From positions 9,744,001 through 9,808,000 of the forward strand of contig OX335665.1 in the NCBI GenBank assembly GCA_946894095.1: a stretch of DNA of 64,000 bases. The letters are read 5' to 3'. Made by a program: the position numbers and the translations under genes. Below, piece by piece: positions 4,160 to 47,759 of this stretch. Source of the stretch: Incurvaria masculella (lineage: Eukaryota; Arthropoda; Insecta; Lepidoptera; Incurvariidae). How positions within the stretch are numbered: the stretch's first letter is position 1; every line of letters begins with the position of its first letter. The notes beneath the pieces were generated by a model. It was not told the DNA's origin. It worked only from the letters and a program-made list of their open reading frames with translations, and did not search any database.

Positions 4160-4169
4160 CGGACTTCCA

Positions 4170-25187: not shown

Positions 25188-27856
25188 TGGATATCCCTTT
25201 TTTTAAAGTATTAGTATAAGTATAGTATAGTATAGTAAACTATTTTGTGGATTATTTTTTGTAGGTAATTAGTATGTTTTTTTAAAGATTTTATCTTTTA
25301 GCCGTAATAAGGTATAAATGTTATTTTTATTTTGTATGATTAGTTTCTTCTACTTTTAATTTGAATTTATTCAGTAGGTAATAAAGTGTATCCGTTTTGC
25401 ATGAGTTACTATTCTATTTCTAGTCAAGCCATTGATTACTTACATACTTATTATATGGAACTGTACATGTAACAGTCAAATAAACAATTCTTGCTCAGAT
25501 TATTGAAAACTGCAATTTAGGGCTATTCCATGTGTTTTAATGAAAAACACTAGAATTTCACAAATGAAAAGCTTTTATCAATAATATTCTTGTAAAAATT
25601 AACACTTTTCATTAAAATCCTCTATATATTGAGGCGCTCGATACATTTTTTATGATAGTGGTTATAACTATTTATTCTAGCCGACCGTTAAAGCTTGTTT
25701 TAATTTGTGTTTTAATAATATAAAATTACACAATTTTTGGCAAAAACCTTGCAGCAACTACACAATATTCACTCTATTTAATTCTAAATGCACTCAAACA
25801 GCCTTCAAATGACGAATAATACAAAAAATCAATAAAAACAAGACAATTAATTTACAATGTCACATGGGATTGACATGAATAAACCTAATTTTGAAACAAG
25901 ATTTATGTACAAAACAAACGTCGATTAAACTGGATAAATTCATGAAGTTATTTAATTTTTTTCAGGGGTTTATATTTTAGTAAGCTTTTATAATATTGTT
26001 AACACAGCAGTATTGTTACCACTCAATTTAACACCGAGAATAACGTTTGCGTTTCGTTCACAAAATGCAAATAAACACTTTATATTGGGGACAATATAAG
26101 AACAGATTTTTTTTATTATCAAGAGTTAAAAAAATACAAGAGTCTGACAACGACTTAACGAGAAAAGCTTGCGAAAAGCACTGAAGAATTTTCACGAACG
26201 GTCGGCTCGGCGCGGTACGAGAAACGTCAAAAGGTACAGGTCTGCTCGTCTATATTGGCGCGACATCTCGCACGATCAATGAAAAAAAAGAAGTAGCATA
26301 GCCGACTGTTAAATCGAATCTGTAATGGAAGTAGCTGCAATAAAAAAGCTTACAGTTGTACAAAGTATCCAAGATTTTTTTTGGAACACCAGCAATTTTT
26401 TCATTAGTAGAAAACGAGGGTCGCATTCACATTAGCCTTGAAGTTACACGGCCTCATTTACATTGGTCGATCGATCTGTCGATACGCATTCGATGTGTGC
26501 GGCTCCCGTCCCCCGTGTGCGACCATGTGCGACGAAACATTGTAATGCGTGCAACAAAACTACCCGAATATGCAAGCATTTTTTGCGTACATCCTCAAAA
26601 TGATGTATCTAAGAAATTCCAGCTTGTTTGTATAATTGTAAATAATTAATTGTAAATTTGGCGTCGTTAGAGGAAAAGGGACAGACGTGACTCGTGGCTT
26701 TGTCACCTTTTTTTCAAACTTATTGTCATGACTTTAAGTACCGTTTTAGCTTGTTAGAATAATCGAATGTCACTCTATCTCTAGACAGAAGTAAAGTAAG
26801 TCAAAATCAAAATCAAATCTTTATTGCCGTTTTTTGCTTAGGTATATGTATTGGCTCACTCTTAAGAGGTACGTTAGTCAAACTAAAACTGCTTGGGTTG
26901 GCGTGCAATATGACATAGCATGTCAAATAAAATCATTTAAATTCGCATTAAAAATATAAAATAATCGAACGCATTGTAAAATAATTGAGTCAATACAATA
27001 TAATAGATTACATTTCTATTAAATTGTTTAGACAAATAAATTAACTGAACATAATATAATAACCATTGAAGACATTTAATGGGAATTATTCTTGACAAAA
27101 ACACAAGTTTCATAAAGTCTGTATGTATATTCGTGCCACCGTTTCATCGTATATTTTAAAATCCTGTCACTGGTAATATCGCCTGTACGACCCACCGCTA
27201 CTGGTAACCACAGAACATTTCCTGATGGTAACCCTTTAAAAAATGGACGCCCAATGAAATGTCAGACAGAACAGCCAATGTAGGATTTTGTAAAACACGG
27301 GTTATTTCGTGAATTCCGTGAGTTTCCTTCAATGTTTTTATTTATTGCCTAATTCACTATACCACTTTCAGATTCTCTGCTATTTCATTTAGTCCTACAG
27401 GTTGACACAACATTTAATAATATGGCTCCAAAGAACTGCATGTCGAATACGAAAACAAAAATATGCATTGCACGTGTCATCTTTTTGTTGTCCTTATTAT
27501 CTTAGCTTTGGAAGCTACCTCCTGTTTACTCGGGGTAATTGGTAATAATTGGTAACCTACAAAATGATTGTCCACTCGCCAAGCTATAACTTATAGCTAT
27601 ACCGGCATTCATTCAGTTGGAACTAATCGAAATAATCTTTAAATTATTCGAGAAATTGTTATACATCTTACTCAATTAACTCGAGAACTTACACACGGGC
27701 TTAGATAAACATTTATGACATTCGCTAAGTTGGCATATGCAGCAAATATCATAAGGAGTGATAGGTGAAAGTTTAGAAATGTCCATTGGAGCCATGGCGG
27801 AATAGAGCTTCGAATTCTTCTTTACAAACATCCATCTATCCAATCCTTCTTTTCAG
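25188..27856. other. AT-rich spacer between two divergent genes
   Basis: It separates the AHCYL-like exon (leftward) from the MIF4G-like gene (rightward), so upstream promoters and 5' UTR exons of both genes should lie here. No TATA box can be singled out. 26803-26830 (TCAAAATCAAAATCAAATC) looks like the start of a reversed retroelement tail. Confidence 0.45.
26803..27260 (-). mobile_element. Possible 3' UTR of a reversed non-LTR element
   Basis: The left edge, read on the minus strand, ends in GATTTGATTTTGATTTTGA, a tail type common in insect CR1-like elements. No coding part was recognised, so the right limit is approximate. Confidence 0.35.
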
Positions 27857-28340
27857 CGAGCATGTCTGCAGGGGGTCGCGGCCGGGGGTATCTGGGCCGC
27901 CATCACCTTCGAGACGAGCCGGTGCGTCCGGGGGACCCCACCACCCCCGCCTCCGTCGCCGGAGACAAGCCAACCCCCAGCGCGGACAGAGATAACAACT
28001 CCGGGGACAAGCCTTCCCACTCGCACTCGGGGGAGAGAGTTGCCCACGGAGGAGACAAGACTACCAAATCTGCAACGCCCCGCTCTGCTGACAAAGGCAG
28101 GGAGAAATCAACCCGCACTATTGACAAATCTGCAGTTTTAAACAAGGAGCAACCGTCTGCTGAGAGAAATCACTCCGGGGAGATGACGACACATGCGGGC
28201 GATAAGTCCACCCGTAGCGGGGACGCATCTGCCCGCTCGGGCGACCCATCCAACGCTTTGAGTGAGGAAGTGCAGTGTTTGGAGCCACCAAAAGATGTAC
28301 ATCATAGTGCTAGCATCGTTTTGGCCGATGCCAATAGCAG
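27857..28340 (+). CDS. MIF4G-like gene, exon 1 in view
   Basis: The exon follows a good acceptor (CCTTCTTTTCAG ending at 27856). The ATG at 27862 is five bases in. It encodes a hydrophilic region with repeats of GDK, SGD and SADK and ends phase 2 at AGCAG/GTGAAG. The region looks disordered. If an upstream coding exon exists, the frame is open through the five bases before ATG. Confidence 0.75.
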
Positions 28341-31300
28341 GTGAAGAACGCTTTCTTGTTCTATTTTTGTGTGTGTTACAGTTGTGTGTATGAGAGACAG
28401 GTGTTCAATACGAACATAAATATACACATTAATCTTAACGAACAAACATTTGCTGCATGGCAATATAATGACCATACGTCAGGACCGGCTGGCAAAATGC
28501 GCGCTCTTTTCCGATTCTGCCTGAGCGCCAATACAACGTGTAATGTTTATCTGCATTGAAATAAATAATTGACAGCACCAATAAGTGTTTTTATGTTCGC
28601 AACGAAAACCCAGCGACCTCAGTAAACCTTGAAGCAAACAACAGGATATGATCAAATGACACATGATCGACATTATGATATATACATAACATTACGCCGA
28701 TTCTCCAGATAAGACGGATTGAAATGTCTGCACCACCATCTGTCATTATTCTTTTGCCGTTCCTGCCTCTACTACTCCTGCCTCTACGACTCCCGCATAT
28801 TCGGTGCGGAACATTAAAGTAGTTGGTTTCTAATAGCACTGACTTTTACATGTTGAAGTCGAGTGAGAAGGTCTCCGTGCCTGTGCCTGGCCTGTTTCTT
28901 GGCCCTCGCTGTAGATCCTGACATCTTGGATTTCCTGCTGTGGCATGCTTCTTTAAGATGCATCCTTTCACATTTGGCCTTTATTTTCGGGTACTATTTG
29001 ACAACCTCGTTTGTGCCCCCTCTGCCGCGGTGTGTTGATCGGAACTGTCGGAACTATTGCTCTTGCTGTAGGAAGAGTTCAGGAGTGTTGGCGCTCGTCA
29101 CTTGCAGGTTGGTGGCGGAGGGTGCGGAGGAGGCGCGGCTCGGCGCCGACGACGCGGCGGCGCTCGCGGAGCTGATGCGCGTGGAGGAGCCCCACCGGCC
29201 GCTTGTCGCCATGGTGAGCACGGCCCTACTCCTCTCTTTATTTATTATTGTTGTTGGAATTGGATGACTAACACTTTTTTTATGTCACTGGACCTGGATG
29301 ACTAATACTACACATACTTAGATAAATAGTGGTAACCGAAACTAAAGACTAACGAAAAGTAGTACTTTGTTACGTAATTACGCAAGCAAACAGTAAAATA
29401 AAGAAACAAAGTTCTATCTACCAATCAATTAACATATTGAATGGACTACCGAATGAAATAAAGAGTGCAGATTCAACTAAGCTATTTATAAATCAACTTA
29501 AAGAGTTCCTGTTAGAAAATCCCTTCTACTCTCTCTGTGAATATTTTAAATATATTAAATAATGATAAATTAGAAGCTTAAATATAAGAAATAGTATTAT
29601 TTTTTAGTTATGCTTGTTGTATATAAAAATTAAATCGTCGGTGTATGTGATGTGTGTACCTATTTATAATGAAATGTTTCTATGCCTGCATGGTGATTAT
29701 TCTGAAACAATAAACAAACAAACAAACAATATTTTGGCACATTTTGTATGGACGAAATATCAAAGTAATGCAAAGTGACGTCAAAAGTACTACTTTTCTT
29801 AAGTCTTAGTTTCTGTTACGACTATTTATCTCAGCCCCACAGTCATGTCATTAGTCCAACAAACCACATTCCCTAAGGAATTAGGTGCCATTCCAAGACC
29901 TTCCCTTTATGAGCACGGCTACATTGATCTGAATGGATCTTTTAATTGCCGCTTTGACCATCTTTTCATCCTATGCAAAGGTAACAAGCAAGGTGGGCTT
30001 AACCGTACCACCTAAAAGGTGCTACAGTTTTAAAATAGAGAAAATCTTAAAACGACTACCCTCAATTTGCTTGAATAAAAAAAAATATTAACATGTTTCA
30101 GTTGGAGCAGTTCTCGCCAGGAGAGGACGGCATCGCGTTCAACCGCAAGCTGCGCGAGTTCGAGGCAACGCTCACGGCGCTCTGCTCCGACGACGCCCAG
30201 CTGCAGTCAGTATCCGTCCGCACCTTTGCCATGGGAAAGGACTCATTCTTTCACATGCCTAAGACATTCCACTCGCTCTTTCGAACAAGTGTAGTCACTT
30301 CTCTTACCCTACCACCAAACCTACCGTCACTACCAGCGAATATATTGAACACCTTAAACACCCAAAGGCCGACTGGAAGAAATCTTTTCGAGGGATTAAC
30401 CCACCTTTTTAGGGTTCCGTACCCAAAGGGTGAAAACGGAATCCTATTACTAAGCCTCCGCTGTCCATCCGTCCGTCCATCCGTCCGTCTGTTCGTCCAT
30501 CTGTCACAGAGCTGTATCTCATGAACTGTAATAGGTAGGCAGCTGAAATTTTCACAGAGTGTGTATTTATTTTGCCGCTATAACAATAAATAGGTAAAAT
30601 AAAAAAATAATAAAAATTAAAGGGGGGTCCCATACAAAAAACGTGATTTTTTGTGTAAAATCTTGTACGATAGTACGGAACCCTTCATGTGCAAGTCCGA
30701 CATGCACTTGGCTGGTTTTAAATGTTAAGTGCGGCATATGGCGTAATGTGCCCGACAACGGCCATGAGATTTCGAACGTTCAGGGGGGCTGCGAAACCCA
30801 CGCAGGCTGGCCAGGTGCTTCTTCGACCATATTTGGGGGACTTGTACATTGTTTACTGACCCTATAGATAAATAATCTCCAGGAACGGTAGTTCTTATTT
30901 TTGGAATGTTGGCTGTGAACTTTTTGTGCATTTTATCCCTTTTCGACGTTGAGCGAAGGTGGAAAGGGAACTGCTGGACAGCGTTCTGCAGCTCCGACGA
31001 GCATTCTCCCTGGTAGAGACAATAGAACACAGGAAGAGAACCTACATCTTATCAGAGGGTATCCAAATTCAGGGATTCTAGGAGCCAAGTGGGTACTCAG
31101 CTGAACCCTTCCACAAATGCAAATAATACTCTACGCAAGACCTTACTTATCTGCGCCAACTTCTCTACAATTACTGAAATATGGGTCTCCCATTTCAAGT
31201 CGTAGGTGATGTTCATTACCATGTCCTTTTGTGAATCCACTGGCTTGAGTTTGACATTGTTTAAAAAGTATGGTAATTTAGGATTTTTTCCCATGTGGAG

Positions 31301-34300
31301 CACAGTACATTTTTCAGCATTTAGGTTCAATAACCACTGTGAGGACCATTGCTGAACACTGTTTAGGTCCTCTAACAAGTCATGCACATTTGCATCCCTC
31401 TGTAGTTCGGAATCTATGTAAAAGTGTAGGTCCCCTTCCCCTGCTAGGTGGTAGGGTTTAAGCCCGTCCGGGTTGGTTAAAAAGATGTTCGAAGTGGCAA
31501 TGAAAAATTTTCCATTGTTTCCATCCAGTTCAATGTAGCCGTGCTCATAAAGAGAAGGTCCTGACATGGCACCTAATTCCTTCGGGAATGTAGTGTATTA
31601 GGATAATATCATAACGGTAGTTGTGTGGTATTAGCCATCCATGCCAGGTTGCATAAAAAAAAACCTTCGCCAGTGAGCACCCACTTGCCACGCATGCGTG
31701 GTTGAAGGCTCGAGGGATCAGCTAGCTAGAAGGCCCTCTCCGCTGTGCAGGCTGGCGTTCGCGTCGCTGCGCGGCGCGGCGCTGGGCAGCGCGGCGCTGG
31801 CGCGCAAGCTCGCGTCCGTGGGCGCCTCCTTCACGCGCCAGCAGCGCCAGAACGTGCTGCGGATGGCGCTGCTCAACGTCATGCAGAGCACCTTCGCCAG
31901 TGAGCACCCACGATTGATTGTTTTGCCTTCTGTGACACCCGTCCGCGCCCATCCACCTATATTTAGTATATAATAATAGTATGAAATTACTATTATTATA
32001 TTATTATTGATAGGCTAGCAGCTTTAAGCTGATGCGCCTATATCAAAACACTTTTTGAGTTGATACAATTTCGTATCAATAATGACGCGGGCTCTGTACG
32101 ATCTAATTCCAAGAGTGTGTGTACACCTAATAAAAGTAAATCACACGAAAAATCGGCCAAACCATTTCGCCTCCAATGTTATGTCTGACAGCCCCCCTCG
32201 CCAAACTTTAACTGGCGCTGCGAAGGTTGTATATGTTGGTAGGTCGGGCCACCTCGCAGACACAACTAGGTTGTCAATATGCGCATAACTGACAGTATCA
32301 GCCGGTGCACGGATGTTGCCAGTCGGCACAGGCGTTTAAAAGTGGAGACAGTTTCCAGCTTATATTTTGAATTGCTCGGTGCAGCAAAACCTGTTGCCCA
32401 ATTTTTCATTACATTAAATTATACTGCACCATGGGTTATGGTGACTGTGTTTATAATTGTTGATTTTACAATTCTAACAAATGTAACAAGCACGTTTGCC
32501 TAACATGGATACACGTGTGTGTTCTGTTTGGTATGTACCATTAATCTCCAGCCCCATTACCTATTTAAAGTATTTAATTATTTTGTGCATTTTTTTGTTC
32601 TTTATCTATTTGATTTCCATCACTGAAAATACTTGCGCTAATTTCGCCCATGCACATTTGCAGAACTAGACGTGCTGGAGCGAGCTTCACCACAGATTCT
32701 TACGAATGCCGCTACTCTCATGGGAGACTACTTTATGGGTAAATATTGCTGATTTCCCAAACTTCCCAAATACTCAAGACAACCAACTATTAAGAGCAAC
32801 AACATTCACGCAAAATAATTTGAGATTACAGAGCGACATTGAAGAAAATTCAACACTTTTTAATCTCTTCTCCCTCATGTGCATACTACATACAAAATAA
32901 CATTTTCACCCGAAATGAGATCATATTTTAAAAATAATAAAAAAAATGTTTGGCTTCTGAGGAATGTCGTGAACAAACATGTTTCTGTTTATTTTCCAAA
33001 TGCTTATTAGCTGTCGTTCAGCTATGCGGCTTGCAGGCTAGCGGTCTAACAGCTGCCATTATTATGGACACCCTTTTTTCCACACTAAATACAGCCAAGT
33101 ATGGTCCACGTTCATAGTGTGTATTGCCCTCTGTTATTCCTAATTTCCTAAAGTTAAAGCAATTAACTATGGTTTTATTGTGCAGAGGCACGCCTCGGCA
33201 ATGGCAGCAAGGTGCAGCTGCTGTGTGCTCCGCTTCTTCAGTACCTGCGCTCGCTGCTCGCCTGCGCCGACCGCCGCGCGCACCGGGCGCTCGCCACACA
33301 GGTATCTACTGCTGCAGTACCTGCGCTCGCTGCTCGCCTGCGCCGACCGCCGCGCGCACCGGGCGCTCGCCACACAGGTATCTACTGCTGCAGTACCTGC
33401 GCTCGCTGCTCGCCTGCGCCGACCGCCGCGCGCACCGGGCGCTCGACACACAGGTGTCTACTGCTGCAGTACCTGCGCTCGCTGCTCGCCTGCGCCGACC
33501 GCCGCGCGCACCGGGCGCTCGACACACAGGTGTCTACTGCTGCAGTACCTGCGCTCGCTGCTCGCCTGCGCCGACCGCCGCGCGCACCGGGCGCTCGCCA
33601 CACAGGTATCTACTGCTGCAGTACCTGCGCTCTCTGCTCGCCTGCGCCGACCGCCGCGCGCACCGGGCGCCGCGCGCACCGGGCGCTCGCCACACAGGTA
33701 TCTACTGCTGCAGTACCTGCGCTCGCTGCTCGCCTGCGCCGACCGCCGCGCGCACCGGGCGCTCGACACACAGGTGTCTACTGCTGCAGTACCTGCGCTC
33801 GCTGCTCGCCTGCGCCGACCGCCGCGCGCACCGGGCGCTCGACACACAGGTGTCTACTGCTGCAGTACCTGCGCTCGCTGCTCGCCTGCGCCGACCGCCG
33901 CGCGCACCGGGCGCTCGCCACACAGGTATCTACTGCTGCAGTACCTGCGCTCTCTGCTCGCCTGCGCCGACCGCCGCGCGCACCGGGCGCCGCGCGCACC
34001 GGGCGCTCGCCACACAGGTATCTACTGCTGCAGTACCTGCGCTCGCTGCTCGCCTGCGCCGACCGCCGCGCGCACCGGGCGCTCGACACACAGGTGTCTA
34101 CTGCTGCAGTACCTGCGCTCGCTGCTCGCCTACGCCGACCGCCGCGCGCACCGGGCGCTCGACACACAGGTGTCTACTGCTGCAGTACCTGCGCTCGCTG
34201 CTCGCCTGCGCCGACCGCCGCGCGCACCGGGCGCTCGCCACACAGGTATCTACTGCTGCAGTACCTGCGCTCTCTGCTCGCCTGCGCCGACCGCCGCGCG

Positions 34301-37300
34301 CACCGGGCGCCGCGCGCACCGGGCGCTCGCCACACAGGTATCTACTGCTGCAGTACCTGCGCTCGCTGCTCGCCTGCGCCGACCGCCGCGCGCACCGGGC
34401 GCTCGCCACACAGGTATCTACTGCTGCAGTACCTGCGCTCGCTGCTCGCCTGCGCCGACCGCCGCGCGCACCGGGCGCTCGACACACAGGTGTCTACTGC
34501 TGCAGTACCTGCGCTCGCTGCTCGCCTGCGCCGACCGCCGCGCGCACCGGGCGCTCGCCACACAGGTATCTACTGCTGCAGTACCTGCGCTCGCTGCTCG
34601 CCTGCGCCGACCGCCGCGCGCACCGGGCGCTCGACACACAGGTGTCTACTGCTGCAGTACCTGCGCTCGCTGCTCGCCTGCGCCGACCGCCGCGCGCACC
34701 GGGCGCTCGACACACAGGTGTCTACTGCTGCAGTACCTGCGCTCGCTGCTCGCCTGCGCCGACCGCCGCGCGCACCGGGCGCTCGCCACACAGGTGTCTA
34801 CTGCTGCAGTACCTGCGCTCGCTGCTCGCCTGCGCCGACCGCCGCGCGCACCGGGCGCTCGCCACACAGGTATCTACTGCTGCAGTACCTGCGCTCGCTG
34901 CTCGCCTGCGCCGACCGCCGCGCGCACCGGGCGCTCGCCACACAGGTATCTACTGCTGCAGTACCTGCGCTCGCTGCTCGCCTGCGCCGACCGCCGCGCG
35001 CACCGGGCGCTCGACACACAGGTATCTACTGCTGCAGTACCTGCGCTCGCTGCTCGCCTGCGCCGACCGCCGCGCGCACCGGGCGCTCGCCACACAGGTA
35101 TCTACTGCTGCAGTACCTGCGCTCGCTGCTCGCCTGCGCCGACCGCCGCGCGCACCGGGCGCTCGACACACAGGTGTCTACTGCTGCAGTACCTGCGCTC
35201 GCTGCTCGCCTGCGCCGACCGCCGCGCGCACCGGGCGCTCGACACACAGGTGTCTACTGCTGCAGTACCTGCGCTCGCTGCTCGCCTGCGCCGACCGCCG
35301 CGCGCACCGGGCGCTCGCCACACAGGTGTCTACTGCTGCAGTACCTGCGCTCGCTGCTCGCCTGCGCCGACCGCCGCGCGCACCGGGCGCTCGACACACA
35401 GGTGTCTACTGCTGCAGTACCTGCGCTCGCTGCTCGCCTGCGCCGACCGCCGCGCGCACCGGGCGCTCGCCACACAGGTGTCTACTGCTGCAGTACCTGC
35501 GCTCGCTGCTCGCCTGCGCCGACCGCCGCGCGCACCGGGCGCTCGCCACACAGGTGTCTACTGCTGCAGTACCTGCGCTCGCTGCTCGCCTGCGCCGACC
35601 GCCGCGCGCACCGGGCGCTCGACACAGGTGTCTACTGCTGCAGTACCTGCGCTCGCTGCTCGCCTGCGCCGACCGCCGCGCGCACCGGGCGCTCGACACA
35701 GGTGTCTACTGCTGCAGTACCTGCGCTCGCTGCTCGCCTGCGCCGACCGCCGCGCGCACCGGGCGCTCGACACACAGGTGTCTACTGCTGCAGTACCTGC
35801 GCTCGCTGCTCGCCTGCGCCGACCGCCGCGCGCACCGGGCGCTCGACACACAGGTGTCTACTGCTGCAGTACCTGCGCTCGCTGCTCGCCTGCGCCGACC
35901 GCCGCGCGCACCGGGCGCTCGACACACAGGTGTCTACTGCTGCAGTACCTGCGCTCGCTGCTCGCCTGCGCCGACCGCCGCGCGCACCGGGCGCTCGACA
36001 CACAGGTGTCTACTGCTGCAGTACCTGCGCTCGCTGCTCGCCTGCGCCGACCGCCGCGCGCACCGAGCGCTCGACACACAGGTGTCTACTGCTGCAGTAC
36101 CTGCGCTCGCTGCTCGCCTGCGCCGACCGCCGCGCGCACCGGGCGCTCGCCACACAGGTATCTACTGCTGCAGTACCTGCGCTCGCTGCTCGCCTGCGCC
36201 GACCGCCGCGCGCACCGGGCGCTCGCCACACAGGTATCTACTGCTGCAGTACCTGCGCTCGCTGCTCGCCTGCGCCGACCGCCGCGCGCACCGGGCGCTC
36301 GACACACAGGTGTCTACTGCTGCAGTACCTGCGCTCGCTGCTCGCCTGCGCCGACCGCCGCGCGCACCGGGCGCTCGACACACAGGTGTCTACTGCTGCA
36401 GTACCTGCGCTCGCTGCTCGCCTGCGCCGACCGCCGCGCGCACCGGGCGCTCGACACACAGGTGTCTACTGCTGCAGTACCTGCGCTCGCTGCTCGCCTG
36501 CGCCGACCGCCGCGCGCACCGGGCGCTCGCCACACAGGTATCTACTGCTGCAGTACCTGCGCTCTCTGCTCGCCTGCGCCGACCGCCGCGCGCACCGGGC
36601 GCCGCGCGCACCGGGCGCTCGCCACACAGGTATCTACTGCTGCAGTACCTGCGCTCGCTGCTCGCCTGCGCCGACCGCCGCGCGCACCGGGCGCTCGACA
36701 CACAGGTGTCTACTGCTGCAGTACCTGCGCTCGCTGCTCGCCTGCGCCGACCGCCGCGCGCACCGGGCGCTCGACACACAGGTGTCTACTGCTGCAGTAC
36801 CTGCGCTCGCTGCTCGCCTGCGCCGACCGCCGCGCGCACCGGGCGCTCGCCACACAGGTATCTACTGCTGCAGTACCTGCGCTCTCTGCTCGCCTGCGCC
36901 GACCGCCGCGCGCACCGGGCGCCGCGCGCACCGGGCGCTCGCCACACAGGTATCTACTGCTGCAGTACCTGCGCTCGCTGCTCGCCTGCGCCGACCGCCG
37001 CGCGCACCGGGCGCTCGACACACAGGTGTCTACTGCTGCAGTACCTGCGCTCGCTGCTCGCCTGCGCCGACCGCCGCGCGCACCGGGCGCTCGACACACA
37101 GGTGTCTACTGCTGCAGTACCTGCGCTCGCTGCTCGCCTGCGCCGACCGCCGCGCGCACCGGGCGCTCGCCACACAGGTATCTACTGCTGCAGTACCTGC
37201 GCTCTCTGCTCGCCTGCGCCGACCGCCGCGCGCACCGGGCGCCGCGCGCACCGGGCGCTCGCCACACAGGTATCTACTGCTGCAGTACCTGCGCTCGCTG

Positions 37301-40300
37301 CTCGCCTGCGCCGACCGCCGCGCGCACCGGGCGCTCGCCACACAGGTATCTACTGCTGCAGTACCTGCGCTCGCTGCTCGCCTGCGCCGACCGCCGCGCG
37401 CACCGGGCGCTCGACACACAGGTGTCTACTGCTGCAGTACCTGCGCTCGCTGCTCGCCTGCGCCGACCGCCGCGCGCACCGGGCGCTCGACACACAGGTG
37501 TCTACTGCTGCAGTACCTGCGCTCGCTGCTCGCCTGCGCCGACCGCCGCGCGCACCGGGCGCTCGCCACACAGGTGTCTACTGCTGCAGTACCTGCGCTC
37601 GCTGCTCGCCTGCGCCGACCGCCGCGCGCACCGGGCGCTCGACACACAGGTGTCTACTGCTGCAGTACCTGCGCTCGCTGCTCGCCTGCGCCGACCGCCG
37701 CGCGCACCGGGCGCTCGCCACACAGGTGTCTACTGCTGCAGTACCTGCGCTCGCTGCTCGCCTGCGCCGACCGCCGCGCGCACCGGGCGCTCGCCACACA
37801 GGTGTCTACTGCTGCAGTACCTGCGCTCGCTGCTCGCCTGCGCCGACCGCCGCGCGCACCGGGCGCTCGACACAGGTGTCTACTGCTGCAGTACCTGCGC
37901 TCGCTGCTCGCCTGCGCCGACCGCCGCGCGCACCGGGCGCTCGACACAGGTGTCTACTGCTGCAGTACCTGCGCTCGCTGCTCGCCTGCGCCGACCGCCG
38001 CGCGCACCGGGCGCTCGACACACAGGTGTCTACTGCTGCAGTACCTGCGCTCGCTGCTCGCCTGCGCCGACCGCCGCGCGCACCGGGCGCTCGACACACA
38101 GGTGTCTACTGCTGCAGTACCTGCGCTCGCTGCTCGCCTGCGCCGACCGCCGCGCGCACCGGGCGCTCGCCACACAGGTATCTACTGCTGCAGTACCTGC
38201 GCTCGCTGCTCGCCTGCGCCGACCGCCGCGCGCACCGGGCGCTCGACACACAGGTGTCTACTGCTGCAGTACCTGCGCTCGCTGCTCGCCTGCGCCGACC
38301 GCCGCGCGCACCGGGCGCTCGACACACAGGTGTCTACTGCTGCAGTACCTGCGCTCGCTGCTCGCCTGCGCCGACCGCCGCGCGCACCGGGCGCTCGCCA
38401 CACAGGTGTCTACTGCTGCAGTACCTGCGCTCGCTGCTCGCCTGCGCCGACCGCCGCGCGCACCGGGCGCTCGACACACAGGTGTCTACTGCTGCAGTAC
38501 CTGCGCTCGCTGCTCGCCTGCGCCGACCGCCGCGCGCACCGGGCGCTCGCCACACAGGTGTCTACTGCTGCAGTACCTGCGCTCGCTGCTCGCCTGCGCC
38601 GACCGCCGCGCGCACCGGGCGCTCGCCACACAGGTGTCTACTGCTGCAGTACCTGCGCTCGCTGCTCGCCTGCGCCGACCGCCGCGCGCACCGGGCGCTC
38701 GACACAGGTGTCTACTGCTGCAGTACCTGCGCTCGCTGCTCGCCTGCGCCGACCGCCGCGCGCACCGGGCGCTCGACACAGGTGTCTACTGCTGCAGTAC
38801 CTGCGCTCGCTGCTCGCCTGCGCCGACCGCCGCGCGCACCGGGCGCTCGACACACAGGTGTCTACTGCTGCAGTACCTGCGCTCGCTGCTCGCCTGCGCC
38901 GACCGCCGCGCGCACCGGGCGCTCGACACACAGGTGTCTACTGCTGCAGTACCTGCGCTCGCTGCTCGCCTGCGCCGACCGCCGCGCGCACCGGGCGCTC
39001 GACACACAGGTGTCTACTGCTGCAGTACCTGCGCTCGCTGCTCGCCTGCGCCGACCGCCGCGCGCACCGAGCGCTCGACACACAGGTGTCTACTGCTGCA
39101 GTACCTGCGCTCGCTGCTCGCCTGCGCCGACCGCCGCGCGCACCGGGCGCTCGCCACACAGGTATCTACTGCTGCAGTACCTGCGCTCGCTGCTCGCCTG
39201 CGCCGACCGCCGCGCGCACCGGGCGCTCGCCACACAGGTATCTACTGCTGCAGTACCTGCGCTCGCTGCTCGCCTGCGCCGACCGCCGCGCGCACCGGGC
39301 GCTCGACACACAGGTGTCTACTGCTGCAGTACCTGCGCTCGCTGCTCGCCTGCGCCGACCGCCGCGCGCACCGGGCGCTCGACACACAGGTGTCTACTGC
39401 TGCAGTACCTGCGCTCGCTGCTCGCCTGCGCCGACCGCCGCGCGCACCGGGCGCTCGACACACAGGTGTCTACTGCTGCAGTACCTGCGCTCGCTGCTCG
39501 CCTGCGCCGACCGCCGCGCGCACCGGGCGCTCGCCACACAGGTATCTACTGCTGCAGTACCTGCGCTCTCTGCTCGCCTGCGCCGACCGCCGCGCGCACC
39601 GGGCGCCGCGCGCACCGGGCGCTCGCCACACAGGTATCTACTGCTGCAGTACCTGCGCTCGCTGCTCGCCTGCGCCGACCGCCGCGCGCACCGGGCGCTC
39701 GACACACAGGTGTCTACTGCTGCAGTACCTGCGCTCGCTGCTCGCCTGCGCCGACCGCCGCGCGCACCGGGCGCTCGACACACAGGTGTCTACTGCTGCA
39801 GTACCTGCGCTCGCTGCTCGCCTGCGCCGACCGCCGCGCGCACCGGGCGCTCGCCACACAGGTATCTACTGCTGCAGTACCTGCGCTCTCTGCTCGCCTG
39901 CGCCGACCGCCGCGCGCACCGGGCGCCGCGCGCACCGGGCGCTCGCCACACAGGTATCTACTGCTGCAGTACCTGCGCTCGCTGCTCGCCTGCGCCGACC
40001 GCCGCGCGCACCGGGCGCTCGACACACAGGTGTCTACTGCTGCAGTACCTGCGCTCGCTGCTCGCCTGCGCCGACCGCCGCGCGCACCGGGCGCTCGACA
40101 CACAGGTGTCTACTGCTGCAGTACCTGCGCTCGCTGCTCGCCTGCGCCGACCGCCGCGCGCACCGGGCGCTCGCCACACAGGTATCTACTGCTGCAGTAC
40201 CTGCGCTCTCTGCTCGCCTGCGCCGACCGCCGCGCGCACCGGGCGCCGCGCGCACCGGGCGCTCGCCACACAGGTATCTACTGCTGCAGTACCTGCGCTC

Positions 40301-43300
40301 GCTGCTCGCCTGCGCCGACCGCCGCGCGCACCGGGCGCTCGCCACACAGGTGTCTACTGCTGCAGTACCTGCGCTCGCTGCTCGCCTGCGCCGACCGCCG
40401 CGCGCACCGGGCGCTCGACACACAGGTGTCTACTGCTGCAGTACCTGCGCTCGCTGCTCGCCTGCGCCGACCGCCGCGCGCACCGGGCGCTCGACACACA
40501 GGTGTCTACTGCTGCAGTACCTGCGCTCGCTGCTCGCCTGCGCCGACCGCCGCGCGCACCGGGCGCTCGCCACACAGGTGTCTACTGCTGCAGTACCTGC
40601 GCTCGCTGCTCGCCTGCGCCGACCGCCGCGCGCACCGGGCGCTCGACACACAGGTGTCTACTGCTGCAGTACCTGCGCTCGCTGCTCGCCTGCGCCGACC
40701 GCCGCGCGCACCGGGCGCTCGCCACACAGGTGTCTACTGCTGCAGTACCTGCGCTCGCTGCTCGCCTGCGCCGACCGCCGCGCGCACCGGGCGCTCGCCA
40801 CACAGGTGTCTACTGCTGCAGTACCTGCGCTCGCTGCTCGCCTGCGCCGACCGCCGCGCGCACCGGGCGCTCGACACAGGTGTCTACTGCTGCAGTACCT
40901 GCGCTCGCTGCTCGCCTGCGCCGACCGCCGCGCGCACCGGGCGCTCGACACAGGTGTCTACTGCTGCAGTACCTGCGCTCGCTGCTCGCCTGCGCCGACC
41001 GCCGCGCGCACCGGGCGCTCGACACACAGGTGTCTACTGCTGCAGTACCTGCGCTCGCTGCTCGCCTGCGCCGACCGCCGCGCGCACCGGGCGCTCGACA
41101 CACAGGTGTCTACTGCTGCAGTACCTGCGCTCGCTGCTCGCCTGCGCCGACCGCCGCGCGCACCGGGCGCTCGACACACAGGTGTCTACTGCTGCAGTAC
41201 CTGCGCTCGCTGCTCGCCTGCGCCGACCGCCGCGCGCACCGGGCGCTCGACACACAGGTGTCTACTGCTGCAGTACCTGCGCTCGCTGCTCGCCTGCGCC
41301 GACCGCCGCGCGCACCGAGCGCTCGACACACAGGTGTCTACTGCTGCAGTACCTGCGCTCGCTGCTCGCCTGCGCCGACCGCCGCGCGCACCGGGCGCTC
41401 GCCACACAGGTATCTACTGCTGCAGTACCTGCGCTCGCTGCTCGCCTGCGCCGACCGCCGCGCGCACCGGGCGCTCGCCACACAGGTGTCTACTGCTGCA
41501 GTACCTGCGCTCGCTGCTCGCCTGCGCCGACCGCCGCGCGCACCGGGCGCTCGACACACAGGTGTCTACTGCTGCAGTACCTGCGCTCGCTGCTCGCCTG
41601 CGCCGACCGCCGCGCGCACCGGGCGCTCGACACACAGGTGTCTACTGCTGCAGTACCTGCGCTCGCTGCTCGCCTGCGCCGACCGCCGCGCGCACCGGGC
41701 GCTCGCCACACAGGTGTCTACTGCTGCAGTACCTGCGCTCGCTGCTCGCCTGCGCCGACCGCCGCGCGCACCGGGCGCTCGACACACAGGTGTCTACTGC
41801 TGCAGTACCTGCGCTCGCTGCTCGCCTGCGCCGACCGCCGCGCGCACCGGGCGCTCGCCACACAGGTGTCTACTGCTGCAGTACCTGCGCTCGCTGCTCG
41901 CCTGCGCCGACCGCCGCGCGCACCGGGCGCTCGCCACACAGGTATCTACTGCTGCAGTACCTGCGCTCGCTGCTCGCCTGCGCCGACCGCCGCGCGCACC
42001 GGGCGCTCGACACACAGGTGTCTACTGCTGCAGTACCTGCGCTCGCTGCTCGCCTGCGCCGACCGCCGCGCGCACCGGGCGCTCGACACACAGGTGTCTA
42101 CTGCTGCAGTACCTGCGCTCGCTGCTCGCCTGCGGGTGGGGTGGTCTATCAGTGGGGATTGAGAATTACAAATTTATAGGTGCTTTTTCACACTGGGGAC
42201 ATTTCATTTTGGTTTAAAGTTAAATATATATATATATTTTTATTAAGATTCATCCACACAGAATTGTTTCACAATTTACATTAAAGAATTTTTTCCAGTA
42301 CATAATCGAAACTATCTATAATTACGGACGAACACAACATGTACAATGAGTTACGCTATTTTGTTTACAAAATGAAATAAGTAGCTTTGACTCTAATAAA
42401 AGAAAGAAAATAAAATAAATAATAAGTAAAAAAAACATAAGTAACAAAAAACAGAAATGCAAACTAAAAACAAAAATTAAGAAAAAACTAAGAACTTACT
42501 GAGAACTTGGCAATGTGTTTAACGACTTTTTGAATGAGTTTAACGAAGACAATATTTCAATATCATATGCTTTAGATAGTACGTTGAGGCTGCGTTTAAT
42601 TCTTGAAAGAGGTGAGTATTTACCAAGCTTTGTTCTACTTATGCCTATGTTAAAAGGAACAAAGTTAGACCGTCTTGCATTAAACCTTGGTACATTAAAG
42701 CCTATTTTGGCTAAAAGCAAAGGACAATTGATGAGATTGTTTGTAATTTTGAATATCAAAAGTGAGTCTGAAAACATTCTTCGCTGTTCCAGGGTTTTCA
42801 ATTTAAAGAAGTTTAGACAGTCGGAGTAATGTGGCAATGAGCGAGCACAATGGGCCGAAAAGGATAAATGATAAAGAAATTTCTTTTGGACATTTTCAAT
42901 GCGTATGATATGTACATTAAAGTGAGGGTTCCAGATGGGACTAGCGTATTCCAATATACTGCGCACAAGTGAATTATACAGTGTTAAATTAGACTCCGGG
43001 TCCGGCTGTCAGCTGTCAAAGTGAGAACAAGCAAAATGCGAGGCTCTAACAAAAAACATCTACAGCTCGTTAGATATCTATTTAAAAGTGTTTTGGCGAC
43101 CATCCCTGCATAGTTTAGTTGGCGATACAGAAGTGAAAGTGTGGACACAGCCGGGTTTGCGGTGAGTCCGTTCCAATTTAATTGTCAAGAATTTACCTAC
43201 CAACCACCACGCCGACGCGGACGATGACCACTACTGTCTTCACTTGACTAATATAATTAACCAGTGCAATAAACTTCTGTTATGGGCGAACAATAATGAT

Positions 43301-46300
43301 AGATATCGAACAAAACTAAGACAATTGCCTGTATCAAAATCAGAAAACATCCATAACCTCAAAAGTGTATACTAATTTCTTCGTGATAAACATAAAAATC
43401 AGCGCTATAATCGCCATCTGTTGACATTTGTCAGAACTTCCCAATCAAGTCCCGATTAGGTTGTTTTTCGAATAAAAGGACGATACTAGCACCGTCCAGC
43501 GTAATTTTGGTGCAACGTTTTCTTCCGCTAAAGACAAAATACCGCATATATCAGCTCACCACCGCTGCTGCCATCTAGTGCCACTCGTTCATATCGTTTA
43601 CGTCCACACATAACGATAGTATGATCTACTCAACCAACTAGCTTCTACTTAGCCAATGCAACAGACTAAAGCGCGCATGATACTTTCCATAGAGGTCGCT
43701 CGGCTCCACATCTCTTGTCTAATACACCATGGATGAAATAAAACAAATGTTATTAAAAATGCAGCAAGATATGAAACAACAAAAACAAGACATGGCAGAG
43801 ATGAAGGAGGATATAAAAAACACAATAAATAACAATATTAATGAGAAATTTGCTAGTATGGAACTGAAAAACGCACTTTTAGAGAAAAAAGTGGACGAAC
43901 AAAACGCAAAAATAAACTACTTAGAGAGACATATTAGACGCAAAAACCTAGTTATGTTCGGAGTAGAAGAACGCGAAAAATCCTATCAAGAACTAGAAGA
44001 TATTATTATGAACATAATAAAGACTCACTTCGGACTCACATATGACAGATGCAGCATTGAAGCTGTCAGAAGAATGGGGAAGAAAGGCGAAAAAATCAGA
44101 CCGGTTGTAATATCATTCACTACGATAGGTTTAAAATTAAATATTCAGAAAAACCAGTCTTGTCTACAAAACACTCCGTATTACATGAAGGAAGATTACC
44201 CAATAGATGTCCTCAACAAGCGCAAAGAACTCCAAGCTCAACTGCGGAATGAAAAAGAAGCAGGCAACACTGCCTTTATAAAATACGACAAACTTATAGT
44301 ATTGAGCAACAACAAACGTACCCCTCGCCCCCAGTTCAATAAGAGAAACCTGTCAGAATCTCCGGAAACATCGCACCGTAGCGGCGAAAAAGCAGAATAT
44401 GAAAATAAGCAACCATCCAAGAAAAACAAAGCTACTAACATAAAAGATTATATACTACAAAAACCAAAACTAACCTTTGCTTCGACAGATACCTCTCAAA
44501 GCCAGACGAAAACATCACTGCAAAACTAAGCTACCGCAGTCGGACCCACCCTCTTCACCCCCCCTCCCCCCATCTCCCAGCACGGCAGGTCACCGCGGGA
44601 GAGATCGACCAAAACCCTCCAAAAAAAAAAAAAAAAGTTTGCACCGTCACCACGAAATTACTACCAACAGAACCTCAACTTATCGAGCTAAATGCAGCGC
44701 ACCTAAGCGGTCACGATACATATAATGTATGAAGAAAAAATATATATACTTATATAGCTCTCTATTATAAGGAAAAAATAACCTGAAAAGGAAAGTAAGA
44801 AGAAATATCCTATCAAAATGGCACTTCAAGAAAGAACGGAACAAACTACCAATAAGCCTAAAAATGATAATAAAACCTAAAGAACTTTAAAAAATTTACA
44901 AAGAAAGATATAAGAAGATGCTATGATTCCTTTAGAATGAATTGGCATCAAGAAAAAAAAAATTACAAAGATCTGAACAGGAAAAGTGGAAATCCTTGGA
45001 GGAGGCTTTTACCCGAAAGGGGTCCATGCAACAATAAAAACGTAGCATTAATGATTCCTTTTTTTTGCATTATTTTCTTTTATTTTAATATTTATAGTTA
45101 ATATTTAAGGCAAAAACTGTACAACTGTTATTGCATGGAATCAAATAAAGCTTTATTATTATTATTATTATTATTAAATTAGACTCAATTAGATTTATCT
45201 CAGATACTATCAGGTATTTTAATATTCCTTCTTGGCAAAGATCATCCTTACTTCTAAATATCTAGAAATTAAAATGGAACACGGTATTTAAACGTAATAG
45301 TATATTTATCAACAACAAACATTTAATTATGTGTCAGCGCAGGTTGACATCTAAGATAAATAAATAAAAAAAAATCATTGCATAATAGGTACTTTGATGT
45401 ATCTTACGATCCAAGCAGAACTGAGTTGTCTCCCCTTGACGTTGGATGTGTGCGGTGGCCGCAGCTGATGCAGAATGGGCGCGAGCTGCTCGCGAGCAAC
45501 GCGCCCGAGCTGGAGGAGCTGTCCGTGTCGGTGCGCATCCGGCTGCTCTCCGCGCCGCCCGCCTGCCTTATCTGGCTGCTGCTCTCCGCCGACCTCTGCA
45601 TCAACAAGTTCCTGCCGCTGCCCGCCGGCCTGCAGGGCTTCTACGCCTCCAACCTGGACCTCGTGCCGGAGCCCGACTCGTACAGCGAGGTCTCCTACGG
45701 CTCATGGAGGAAGCCCGACGAGGAGGAGGAGCTCTCGCCGGCGAACGCGTCCGACGAGAGCTCCGCGAGGAAGCCGCGCCCCATCCTGGGCGCCGGCGCC
45801 GCGCTCACCCGCCAGAACAACAGCTTCCCGGAGGTCACGGCCGCCCACGACTCTCAGGTACTCTTTTCTTCCCATGTCATTATAGCTGTATGGAAAAAGG
45901 TCCTTTACCTATCTTATGACAAGAATGTTGTCAAAAGAACAAAGTGCTTCTTAGCTTTTTCACCTGTCAGAGGGATTTTTTTTTATGCGACCTGACATGG
46001 ATGGCTTATACCACACAACTACCGTTATGATATTAGCCCAATACACCACATTCCCGAAGGAATTATGTGCCATGTCAGGACCTTCCCTTTATGAGCACGG
46101 CTACATTGAACTGGATGGAAAACACGGACAATTTTTCATTGCCGCTTTGACCATCTTTTCATCCAATACGATGGTACCAACCCGGGCGGGCTTAAACCCT
46201 ACCACCTAGTAGGGGAAGGAGACCTACAGTTTTACATGGATTCCAAACCATGGAGCAGCTCACTTTTGCGACGCAATGCACTTATCTAACTTGGAAAGAG

Positions 46301-47759
46301 AAAGACAGTGGTGCATGTCAGAATTGAACTCGGACCTCTGGTACGCTAGGCCAGTCCCCGCGCCACTAGACTACGAGCCGCTACCTTTGACAAGAATGTT
46401 GTCAAAGGAACAAAGTGCTTCTTAGCTTTTACACCTGTCAGAGGTGTGACAGGGATCGTATTGGAATTTGAGGAAGTTGGAAAGTGAGATGTCATAGCCG
46501 TTTTAGATTAAGGTGATGTAGAACCAAAGATAATACTAATAATTACTTCGTAATAGATGGCCATATCCGTACAAAGTGGAGGCCTTCCGCAGTTGTTTGT
46601 GCCGGCAGCAATAAAACTCCAGGTACCTCAAAAATGTTAATGCCAAATGAAGCTTAGCGCTTGGCCCCGAAAGATGACATTCACTCGGCAGCGCCAAATG
46701 GTGCGGCTGTTAAGGGCTGACACATGTTTTGCTATGACGAGCACGCTGAGACAAGCTATTTAAATAGTTGAGTTCCACATTAAATTAATATTATAAGATG
46801 TGTTTTTCGTGTGCCGAAACTAATATTTCCGTTGTGGTTGCGTACTAATATTACCATCAGTTCTGTTTTTAATAAACTTAGATTAGTATCTGGGAGCCGG
46901 GGGTCTTCGGGACTCATCATGTTTAGGTTTTTTCTCCTGAATTTTCGATCTGCACGGGGAAGACTTGTGTAACGTATCAAGCGAGAGAAAATAGTTTACG
47001 AAACTACCCGCCGTCAAGCCCGACTCTCGTACCGATTTTTCACGGCACCCAACAGTAAGTTCTAATGTATGAATGTGATGGCAGGACGTGTGGAACAAGT
47101 CAGCGCTCGCCAAGCGGTACGACCTGAACTCGTGGCGGCAGCAGGAGCCCGGCGACAAGGACGACAGCCAGGAGGAGTTCCCCTCCGCCGACAAGTTCAT
47201 CCCGAGCCAGCAGTTCGTCCCGAACGAGGGCTCCGGCCCGTGGAGCGGCCCCCCGCCCGCGGGCCCCCCCGCGCACTACGCCAAGTTCAACCACGCCGCG
47301 CCGCCGTTCGCGCCGCCCGCCTTCACGACGCCGCCGCCGTTCGTCCCCGAGCGGACCGTCGCGGCCGTGCCGGCGCCCAACGAGAAGTTCAGCAACCCGC
47401 CGCCGTTCCTGCCCGAGCGCTACGACAAGCGCCCGCCGGAGAACTGGCGGCGCGAGCGCGCGGACTGGACGCGGCAGAAGTCGGAGGAGCCGGCGGCGAA
47501 CGGCGAGGCGGAGCGGCGCGGCGCGCGCGACGGCTCGGGGGACGCGCGGGCGGCGCGGCGCGAGGCGGGCCGGGAGGTGCGGGAGGGGCGGGAGGGGAGG
47601 CGGGAGGGTCGGCCGCGGCCGCCGCGCCGCGACGACGCGGACGAGCCGCCCGCGCCGCCGCCGGCGCCCGCGAGGCGCCCCGAGAAGCGCATGGACGTGC
47701 CGCGGAGCCGCAAGTACTGGGACCACGACGACCGACTAGACAAAGACTATAACAGTTAG
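27862..47759 (+). CDS. MIF4G-like translation factor (CTIF/Mextli type?), eight coding exons
   Basis: Coding exons: 27862-28340, 29108-29213, 30102-30205, 31751-31899, 32664-32738, 33186-33301, 45465-45857 and 47085-47759. All introns are GT-AG, the phases agree at every junction, and the total is 2,097 nt (698 residues). Residues 1-159 are low complexity with repeated GDK/SGD motifs. About 160-400 are helical (LEQFSPGEDGIAFNRKLREF, RQQRQNVLRMALLNVMQSTF, VQLLCAPLLQYLRSLLACAD) and resemble a MIF4G domain, the HEAT-type fold of eIF4G, PAIP1, CTIF and Mextli. About 400-698 are acidic and then Pro/Arg-rich, ending RKYWDHDDRLDKDYNS. I infer a cytoplasmic adaptor in translation initiation; the exact orthologue is not certain. 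Exon 1 is preceded by an acceptor at 27856, so a 5' UTR or further coding exon lies upstream. Confidence 0.78.
29108..29213 (+). CDS. MIF4G-like gene, exon 2
   Basis: The acceptor CACTTGCAG ends at 29107. The exon encodes LVAEGAEEARLGADDAAALA and LMRVEEPHRPLVAM and ends phase 0 before GTGAGC at 29214. Alanine-rich helices fit the start of a helical repeat domain. Confidence 0.75.
29319..29835. mobile_element. MITE in intron 2, split by a retroelement tail
   Basis: The left end (about 29319-29375, GATAAATAGTGGTAACCGAA) and right end (about 29778-29834, CTGTTACGACTATTTATCTC) are inverted complements. Between them lies a CR1-like 3' end at 29395-29727. The same terminal phrase occurs at 17617-17685. 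Confidence 0.55.
29395..29727 (+). mobile_element. CR1/Jockey-like 3' end with CAAA tail
   Basis: A short frame reads NGLPNEIKSADSTKLFINQL then KEFLLENPFYSL, the typical C-terminus of CR1-like ORF2. An AT-rich 3' UTR follows, and the segment ends in AATAAACAAACAAACAAAC. Confidence 0.65.
29836..30030 (-). mobile_element. SINE fragment in intron 2
   Basis: The phrases CCTTCCCTTTATGAGCACGG and GCCGCTTTGACCATCTTTTC match the reversed SINE copy at 45976-46385. Head and tail are missing. Confidence 0.6.
30102..30205 (+). CDS. MIF4G-like gene, exon 3
   Basis: The acceptor CATGTTTCAG ends at 30101. The exon encodes LEQFSPGEDGIAFNRKLREF followed by EATLTALCSDDAQL. The donor that keeps frame with exon 4 is GTCAGT at 30206, phase 2. 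An alternative GTATCC four bases later would break the join to exon 4. Confidence 0.7.
30406..30720 (-). repeat. Interspersed repeat family X, copy 6, in intron 3
   Basis: A complete copy, from the AGGGTTCCGTACCC hairpin to ATGCACTTGGCTGGTTTT. Confidence 0.75.
31100..31400 (-). pseudogene. CR1/Jockey-like reverse transcriptase fragment in intron 3
   Basis: The minus strand reads DLLEDLNSVQQWSSQWLLNL, NAEKCTVLHMGKN and YDLKWETHISVIVEKLAQIS, the region after the FADD motif in non-LTR reverse transcriptases. A 156-codon frame appears because the fragment is fused to antisense SINE sequence. It has neither endonuclease nor palm. Confidence 0.7.
31401..31663 (+). mobile_element. SINE copy in intron 3, 5'-truncated with A-tail
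   Basis: Body phrases (TTCGGAATCTATGTAAAA, CTAGGTGGTAGGGTTTAAGC, CCGTGCTCATAAAGAGAAGG) match the other SINE copies. It ends GCCAGGTTGCAT plus nine A residues. The tRNA-like head is missing. The sequence right after the A-tail is a copy of the exon 4 end and donor. Confidence 0.7.
31664..31683 (+). repeat. Duplicate of the exon 4 end and splice donor
   Basis: Twenty bases, CCTTCGCCAGTGAGCACCCA, are identical to 31891-31910, which spans the last 9 bp of exon 4 and its donor. The copy sits directly after the SINE A-tail in intron 3. Confidence 0.85.
31751..31899 (+). CDS. MIF4G-like gene, exon 4
   Basis: The acceptor CGCTGTGCAG ends at 31750. The exon encodes two amphipathic helices (LAFASLRGAALGSAALARKL and RQQRQNVLRMALLNVMQSTF), typical of HEAT-like MIF4G folds. 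It ends phase 1 at GCCA before GTGAGC. The last 9 bp and the donor region are duplicated upstream at 31664-31683. Confidence 0.78.
32664..32738 (+). CDS. MIF4G-like gene, exon 5
   Basis: A 75-nt exon after the acceptor CACATTTGCAG encodes KLDVLERASPQILTNAATLM and GDYFM. It ends phase 1 before GTAAAT at 32739. Confidence 0.75.
33186..33301 (+). CDS. MIF4G-like gene, exon 6, source of the giant array
   Basis: After the acceptor TTATTGTGCAG the exon encodes EARLGNGSKVQLLCAPLLQ and then the 20 residues YLRSLLACADRRAHRALATQ, ending phase 0 before GTATCT at 33302. Those last 60 bases plus the next 16 form the 76-bp unit repeated about 115 times in the following intron. The reading frame continues without a stop through the whole array to 42217 if the intron is retained. 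Confidence 0.8.
33242..42134 (+). repeat. Giant 76-bp tandem array derived from exon 6 and its splice donor
   Basis: About 115 near-identical units fill 8.9 kb. The unit is 60 bp of exon (TACCTGCGCTCG ... GCCACACAG) and 16 bp after it (GTATCTACTGCTGCAG, or GTGTCT in many units). Variant units are 92 bp (a 16-bp internal duplication of CGCGCGCACCGGGCGC, nine copies, all with TCT for TCG upstream) and 74 bp (loss of CA before CAGG, eight copies in pairs). A rare G-to-A change gives CACCGAG at 36061, 39065 and 41313. The array ends abruptly inside a unit at 42134. No stop occurs in any forward frame. It lies inside intron 6 of the MIF4G-like gene. Confidence 0.97.
42135..42495. other. Intron 6 sequence after the array
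   Basis: AT-rich intron. Forward frames that were open through the array stop at about 42162-42217. Confidence 0.5.
42496..42996 (-). pseudogene. CR1-like reverse transcriptase C-terminal fragment, in intron 6
   Basis: The minus strand reads LNLTLYNSLVRSILEYASPI, IENVQKKFLYHLSF and LKTLEQRRMFSDSLLIFKI, typical of the thumb region of CR1/Jockey-like proteins. The frame continues upstream across the element inserted at 42997-45173: the minus-strand sequence just right of it (45187 and up) reads on in frame as LIVSEINLIES. The fragment is 5'-truncated. Confidence 0.72.
43729..44529 (+). CDS. Non-LTR element ORF1 protein, coiled coil and RNA-binding domain
   Basis: The ORF is intact, 266 residues, with no near relative elsewhere in the window. 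Residues 1-65 form a coiled coil with regular hydrophobic spacing (MLLKMQQDMKQQKQDMAEM). LERHIRRKNLVMFGVEE at about 65-81 starts an RRM-like domain to about 150, and VLNKRKELQAQLRNEKEAG at about 164-182 belongs to the C-terminal domain of L1-type ORF1 proteins. The tail is Lys/Ser-rich. In this family the protein binds element RNA as a trimer. Here it is encoded without a partner ORF2. Confidence 0.8.
   Translation: MDEIKQMLLKMQQDMKQQKQDMAEMKEDIKNTINNNINEKFASMELKNALLEKKVDEQNAKINYLERHIRRKNLVMFGVEEREKSYQELEDIIMNIIKTHFGLTYDRCSIEAVRRMGKKGEKIRPVVISFTTIGLKLNIQKNQSCLQNTPYYMKEDYPIDVLNKRKELQAQLRNEKEAGNTAFIKYDKLIVLSNNKRTPRPQFNKRNLSESPETSHRSGEKAEYENKQPSKKNKATNIKDYILQKPKLTFASTDTSQSQTKTSLQN
44820..45035 (+). 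pseudogene. C-terminal remnant of RTE-like ORF2
   Basis: The last open stretch reads KKDIRRCYDSFRMNWHQEKK and WKSLEEAFTRKGSMQQ before a stop near 45034. W-xxLxEAF near the end is typical of RTE-type ORF2 proteins. The rest of ORF2 is gone, so an internal deletion joined the ORF1 3' flank to this end. Confidence 0.55.
45465..45857 (+). CDS. MIF4G-like gene, exon 7
   Basis: The acceptor GGTGGCCGCAG ends at 45464. The exon encodes LMQNGRELLASNAPELEELS, RIRLLSAPPACLIWLLLSAD and LPLPAGLQGFYASNLDLV, then an acidic Ser-rich segment, and ends phase 0 at CTCTCAG before GTACTC. It closes the helical domain and starts the disordered C-terminal part. It joins exon 6 in phase across the 12.2-kb intron that holds the array. 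Confidence 0.82.
45918..45973. repeat. Left copy of a 56-bp direct repeat around a SINE
   Basis: It begins GACAAGAATGTTGTCAAA and ends CACCTGTCAGAGG. The right copy at 46389-46444 has about two mismatches. Confidence 0.8.
45976..46385 (-). mobile_element. Near full-length tRNA-derived SINE in intron 7
   Basis: In reverse orientation the element starts with the tRNA-like head at 46385-46290 (TAGTCTAGTGGCGCGGGGAC in complement) and ends in a T-run at 45976-45984, the complement of its A-tail. This is the most complete of the SINE copies in the window, about 410 bp. It is flanked by a 56-bp direct repeat. Confidence 0.75.
46389..46444. repeat. Right copy of the 56-bp direct repeat around a SINE
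   Basis: It matches 45918-45973. Such a length is far above the usual 5-20 bp of a retrotransposition target duplication. Confidence 0.8.
47085..47759 (+). CDS. MIF4G-like gene, exon 8 with stop codon
   Basis: The acceptor TGTGATGGCAG ends at 47084. The exon encodes 224 residues: DVWNKSALAKRYDLNSWRQQ, a Pro/Phe-rich stretch with repeated PPF-xP-ER motifs, an Arg/Glu-rich stretch and the terminal RSRKYWDHDDRLDKDYNS. The segment KRYDLNSW could be a binding motif, but it does not fit the canonical eIF4E-binding YxxxxL pattern. Stop TAG at 47757-47759. Confidence 0.82.
   Translation, partial: DVWNKSALAKRYDLNSWRQQEPGDKDDSQEEFPSADKFIPSQQFVPNEGSGPWSGPPPAGPPAHYAKFNHAAPPFAPPAFTTPPPFVPERTVAAVPAPNEKFSNPPPFLPERYDKRPPENWRRERADWTRQKSEEPAANGEAERRGARDGSGDARAARREAGREVREGREGRREGRPRPPRRDDADEPPAPPPAPARRPEKRMDVPRSRKYWDHDDRLDKDYNS

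Follow-up and report, generated by a model that had tools for sequence, protein, structure and literature searches.

The minisatellite of the human gene IFI6 (6-16) is built from about 26 copies of a 12-bp unit. Downstream repeat units are described as acting as donors in IFI6 transcripts (PMC4526556). In the human ABCA7 gene, a variable-number tandem repeat (VNTR) in intron 18 includes the donor of exon 18, its 25-bp unit beginning at the GT and its copy number ranging from 12 to ~427; the ABCA7 account documents retention of one VNTR unit, describes skipping of the next exon as rising with array length, and associates array length with altered splicing and with disease risk in human (PMC5954066). 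Internal tandem repeats are also described within human segmental duplications, some of them at exon-intron boundaries where they alter gene structure; as summarised in that source they average a 30-bp unit, 4 copies and 160 bp, with transcript support (PMC2812944). Intron gain by one duplication that spans splice sites is described as well (PMC4974935; for Drosophila, PMC2891723).

The moth locus considered here lies in a window of 64,000 nucleotides (the whole stretch of DNA analysed), which covers 9744001-9808000 of a 9.95-Mb contig. Its central features are:

33239..42134, + strand, minisatellite: 115 full units (76, 92 or 74 bp) and a 28-bp partial unit, unit 1 being the end of exon 6
33239..33314, + strand, unit 1 (type B): the final 63 bp of exon 6, followed by the donor and 13 bases of intron

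Tandem Repeats Finder, run on the window, placed the array at 33239-42134, which keeps the end given in an initial annotation (33242..42134) and shifts the start 3 bases upstream. Cut at CAGTACCTGCGC, the array yields 116 units: 98 of 76 bp, nine of 92 bp, eight of 74 bp and the 28-bp partial, which comes last. The ~115 copies of a 76-bp unit, said to begin inside exon 6, are thus borne out with the addition of the length variants, as is the identity of the first unit with the exon's own 3' end, since unit 1 begins within exon 6 and closes with its donor. In our register a unit comprises 63 bp of exon (CAG and 20 codons) followed by 13 intron bases (GTATCTACTGCTG); in the earlier register it is 60 bp of exon, the GT and 14 further bases. 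CACAG/GT is kept by all 115 full units, the donor reading GTGTCT in 81 and GTATCT in 34. The native donor of exon 6 belongs to the first unit and recurs in the later ones.

The gene that carries the array is modelled as follows:

27862..47759, + strand, host gene, coding span: 8 exons that join to 2097 nt and 698 aa, free of internal stops; ortholog-guided model
33186..33301, + strand, exon 6: phase 1 in, phase 0 out, ending ...LLQYLRSLLACADRRAHRALATQ; acceptor gtgcag, donor GTATCT; ortholog spacing
33302..45464, + strand, intron 6: 12,163 bp, or 3,330 bp if the array is removed
45465..45857, + strand, exon 7: starts LMQNGREL; ortholog-supported

A database search returned 86 relatives of the host gene; every one bearing an organism name is lepidopteran, and about a third are nameless. 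The top match is from Bombyx mori (59% identical over 92%), and the highest identity, 66% over 71%, is to Hyposmocoma. GDYF and MQNGR are both present in 58 of the 86 proteins, and 57 of these 58 (several records coming from the same species) have the 45-residue spacing of the window, the exception being P0053 from Spodoptera exigua, with 27 residues and a differing residue string there. Because the spacing is shared by 57 of 58 records, the end of exon 6 appears to occur once in the orthologs, and the ATQ/LMQ junction of the model appears correct. Among the remaining 28 records, 26 begin, in the compared segment, at or just before LMQ, many of them on contigs of 1.3-4 kb, which would fit frames read off genomic contigs at the intron border. 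Compared with 49 ortholog records, the window agrees at 179 of the 219 columns that are at least 95% conserved and has no internal stop. A search of the genome with P0001 gave 6 matches, each an exon of the host gene, and the gene appears to be single-copy and lepidopteran. The full 698-aa model, used as a second query, found 69 proteins, none of them close enough to be a record of the same species. Within exons 7 and 8 (45465-47759) the G+C content at third codon positions is 0.97, and one alternative frame stays open nearly up to the normal stop. Upstream of the gene, a GC-rich minus-strand frame (MSEASGAGEPSVKRKDSVTRG...) at 24891-25202 may be the first exon of a neighbouring gene with divergent orientation.

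Calling the gene 'MIF4G-like' is justified by predicted structure and not by sequence models. The Pfam MIF4G model gave no match at E<=1 to residues 1-523 of the window protein or to any of 18 alignment members, and a PDB sequence search with 18 sequences gave no MIF4G match at E<=1. However, the predicted model of the ortholog P0003 (mean pLDDT 56.8 overall, 79-95 in ten-residue blocks across residues 71-290) resembles SLIP1 and Paip1, which have eIF4G-type folds, in fold comparison, and the host protein is predicted to have the MIF4G alpha-solenoid fold. The 20 residues of the unit run, in the P0003 model, from the latter half of helix 214-229 to the first half of helix 233-253.

The proposal that the array was seeded by the exon/intron border fits the distribution of its unit. 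Orthologs encode the unit 1 peptide once, in the same place, whilst a search of the 552-Mb, 31-contig genome with the unit gave 116 matches, all of them inside the array at 33239-42134 (such counts are lower bounds, very common words being skipped by the search tool). Because unit 1 is conserved in orthologs and the array is found at only one locus, the comparison supports the exon 6 end as the source and the array as its product. Derivation of the unit from dispersed satellite DNA or a dispersed element was considered and rejected, as all the genome matches found fall in one array.

Eight types of full unit are present (A 52, B 24, C 17, D 9, E 8, F 3, G 1, H 1). Unit 1 and 23 other units make up type B, which is identical to the exon 6 end. 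By our reading, about seven changes would separate the other types from B, and type H would be either a recombinant or a recurrence; the changes among types are five substitutions, including one at donor position +3 and a C>A before the donor, together with one 16-bp duplication and one 2-bp deletion. Along the array the types form a patchwork, their order showing nested, repeated blocks of 19, 14 and 12 units, and because blocks of units have been repeated, its copy number is likely to vary between individuals. Landmarks of this patchwork are:

33619..33710, + strand, first 92-bp unit: type D, with an internal 16-bp duplication; 9 units of this kind in the array
35567..35714, + strand, first pair of 74-bp units: type E, with a 2-bp deletion; 8 units of this kind in the array
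35791..37282, + strand, 19-unit block, copy 1: 1492 bp, the longest repeated block; identical to 38795-40286
38795..40286, + strand, 19-unit block, copy 2: identical to 35791-37282

A background sample of 200 kb, made up of twenty 10-kb stretches taken at random from parts of 19 contigs of this genome, contains three arrays with a period of at least 10 and a length of at least 200 bp, the longest being 359 bp. The 8.9-kb array is far outside this small sample in length, though the same window has a second array, of 2 kb. This second minisatellite, at 54051-56108 and 12 kb past the first, has 32 copies of a 64-bp unit that are 96% alike, with a strong GC skew of ~0.34, and its 32 genome matches are all at its own locus. 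A small tandem array of 6 copies of a 50-bp unit lies at 50398-50709.

The two ends of the array bear differently on how it arose. At the near end, the initial annotation had compared the exon's CTTCTTCAG with the CTGCTGCAG that lies between units, sequences that we find as described, and suggested that this short homology may have served the first duplication. In the frame of the exon, the CTTCTT/CTGCTG differences upstream of CAG fall on the third bases of two Leu codons; since they do, the likeness can be read as microhomology or as a sign that the duplicated segment started further inside the exon, both being compatible with the sequence. At the far end, the last unit breaks off after 28 bp. 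A simple 76-bp tandem duplication does not predict such an end without later trimming, so this breakpoint would either not be the original one or have been trimmed. The flank beyond it contains:

42230..42500, strand unassigned, start of a dispersed repeat, ~80-95 bp past the array: among 40 scored candidates out of 199, the best other copy is 96% identical

Because this repeat starts so close to the array and has so similar a copy elsewhere, the downstream flank must have undergone reworking, and the first breakpoint has probably been lost. A minus-strand frame at 42496-43008, adjoining the array end, is presumably a retroelement fragment by its look. Elsewhere in the window, a non-LTR retrotransposon at 2555-7103 has two long overlapping frames with PRE_C2HC, endonuclease and reverse transcriptase domains. 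Two opposed long frames at 20664-22440, of 317 aa (-) and 298 aa (+), are near-alike over most of their length, share YIGQTKRT... and are probably an inverted duplication; Pfam gave no match to them, and we take them to resemble a GIY-YIG endonuclease.

The observations to be explained are thus the anatomy of the array, the orthology of unit 1, the locus specificity, the block structure and the intact donors and frames. We hold with considerable confidence that the array is a locus-specific minisatellite that arose by duplication of the border, with the unit 1 donor mostly used and the rest spliced out. A tandem duplication across the exon 6/intron 6 border of a single-copy lepidopteran gene of predicted MIF4G fold would have copied a segment with 63 bases from the coding end of the exon, its donor and 13 bases of intron, and slippage and unequal exchange would have carried the array to ~115 units, unit by unit first and in blocks of up to 19 units later. 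Unit 1 would remain the working exon end, with its donor used in most transcripts, and the other 114 units would be removed within the 12-kb intron, though later donors may occasionally be chosen. In favour of this reading, the donor of exon 6 ranks third among the seven of the gene when scored with primate donor frequencies. We infer this mechanism of duplication, this choice of donor and near-neutrality; the array probably lengthens intron 6 with little function, any function being probably absent or slight.

The signals kept within the units raise a different prospect, that the array is active in splicing and that later donors or 60-nt mini-exons enter the mRNA, giving proteins with extra helical segments. 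The exon 6 donor CAGGTATCT scores 1.99, third of the host gene's seven (-2.22 to 4.68), and CAGGTGTCT scores 1.44, by donor frequencies for primates here applied to an insect; among the 499 GT sites of the gene outside the array, 24 score at least as high as the first and 35 at least as high as the second. From an acceptor-like CTACTGCTGCAG to the unit donor, 98 of 115 units form a 60-nt, 20-codon mini-exon (TAC...CAG, phase 0). The intron between adjacent mini-exons would be 16 nt, too short for splicing, and with one mini-exon skipped it is 92 nt in 96 of 113 cases. A later donor k used in place of donor 1 adds whole units, and when the 115 array donors, including the native one, are spliced to exon 7, 39 are in frame, 38 shift to a frame that reaches the last exon and ends no more than 7 nt from the normal stop, and a further 38 run into a stop at the exon 7 start, which speaks against an active array. 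The documented retention of one VNTR unit in ABCA7 (PMC5954066) favours such activity. The presence of the donor in all 115 units says less than it seems to, and was rejected as a sign of selection, since only about seven mutations, too few of them independent, separate the 8 full-unit types. As judged from the ortholog model, an extra copy of the 20 residues, which span mid-helix to mid-helix, is likely to upset the fold. When the first 314 read-through residues served as query in a protein search, nothing came up at E<=0.001, a weak test in which 7998 candidates of ~173-549 aa were scored and orthologs sharing exon 6 were missed too. Folded as RNA, three units show nothing out of the ordinary (z -1.29, with 20 of 200 shuffles doing as well). 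Use of extra donors or in-frame mini-exons is possible, and the 60-nt in-frame mini-exon and three open frames leave room for a coding role; as an account of the locus, an array active in splicing is nevertheless unlikely. Also unlikely is the idea of a living bank of >100 in-frame 20-codon mini-exons and spare donors, which would vary the length of the solenoid whilst exchange rewrites the exon end.

Coding potential could also be claimed for the array as a whole, for all three forward frames run open through it, with no + strand stop in any of the 8 full-unit types, and one frame spans it entirely:

33167..42217, + strand, stop-to-stop frame through exon 6 and the entire array: 3016 aa

Exon 6 would then be a giant coding exon with ~3,000 extra codons and a 76-residue period, and intron retention with full read-through would give a product of 3,314 aa. 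Three open frames are no surprise in themselves: a unit is stop-free by chance in 0.32 of 20,000 whole-unit shuffles, in 0.56 when only the 11 intron bases are shuffled, and in 0.36 with 11-mers drawn from the downstream intron. The giant reading also ends in intron sequence and drops the ortholog-conserved exons 7-8, and the weak, length-limited search just described found no similar protein; we find it scarcely credible. Tandem arrays are error-prone in assembly, and the true locus might have one, few or a very different number of units. However, the array and both flanks are within a single contig, whose end is ~166 kb from the end of the array, and the internal variants (types D, E and F) come in an order that is not random and is more than one block repeated. 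Common long reads are longer than the whole array, and an artefact is very unlikely.

A minisatellite grown from the border of its own exon provides a natural experiment in which the spliceosome chooses one donor among 115 near-identical ones 76 bp apart, and it also asks whether an array that has grown from the end of a coding exon can homogenise that exon. A single duplication across splice sites is a known route to new introns, and the moth locus repeats this step a hundredfold beside a conserved gene. If the mini-exon bank were real, a scaffold of translation-factor fold would vary its solenoid length by splicing, and unequal exchange would keep rewriting the 3' end of the exon, where unit 1 is identical to 23 other units.

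The multiplication of a splice donor about 115 times, which the initial annotation called unusual, stands as an observation, with a GT in 115 of 115 units, and its seeding by the exon is supported; the claim to rarity has to be reduced, given the ~427 donor-bearing copies described for the ABCA7 VNTR (PMC5954066) and the donors of IFI6 (PMC4526556). Like the ABCA7 VNTR, the moth array starts at and contains its exon's splice donor and has a GT in each unit; unlike the 25-bp ABCA7 unit, the moth unit is 76 bp long, has 63 bp of coding exon and an acceptor-like site too, and belongs to an insect. As in IFI6, the units carry donors; alternative donor use is reported for IFI6, and the later moth donors are candidates for it. 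The array shares with some of the human segmental-duplication repeats its position at an exon-intron boundary and is far from the 160-bp average given for them (PMC2812944). Both donor and acceptor-like sites are present in its sequence, and like the Drosophila case it is a tandem duplication carrying splice signals that makes new donor/acceptor pairs; as described, the Drosophila case is one duplication that gave a new, used intron, whereas the moth has ~115 copies beside an old one (PMC2891723). A literature search naming Lepidoptera showed no such array among the 12 titles and abstract beginnings that it gave from the library covered. Thus, the kind of array is already known from the repeated donors of human genes, and what is new here is that so much of the unit is coding, that each unit has an acceptor-like site and that the host is an insect.
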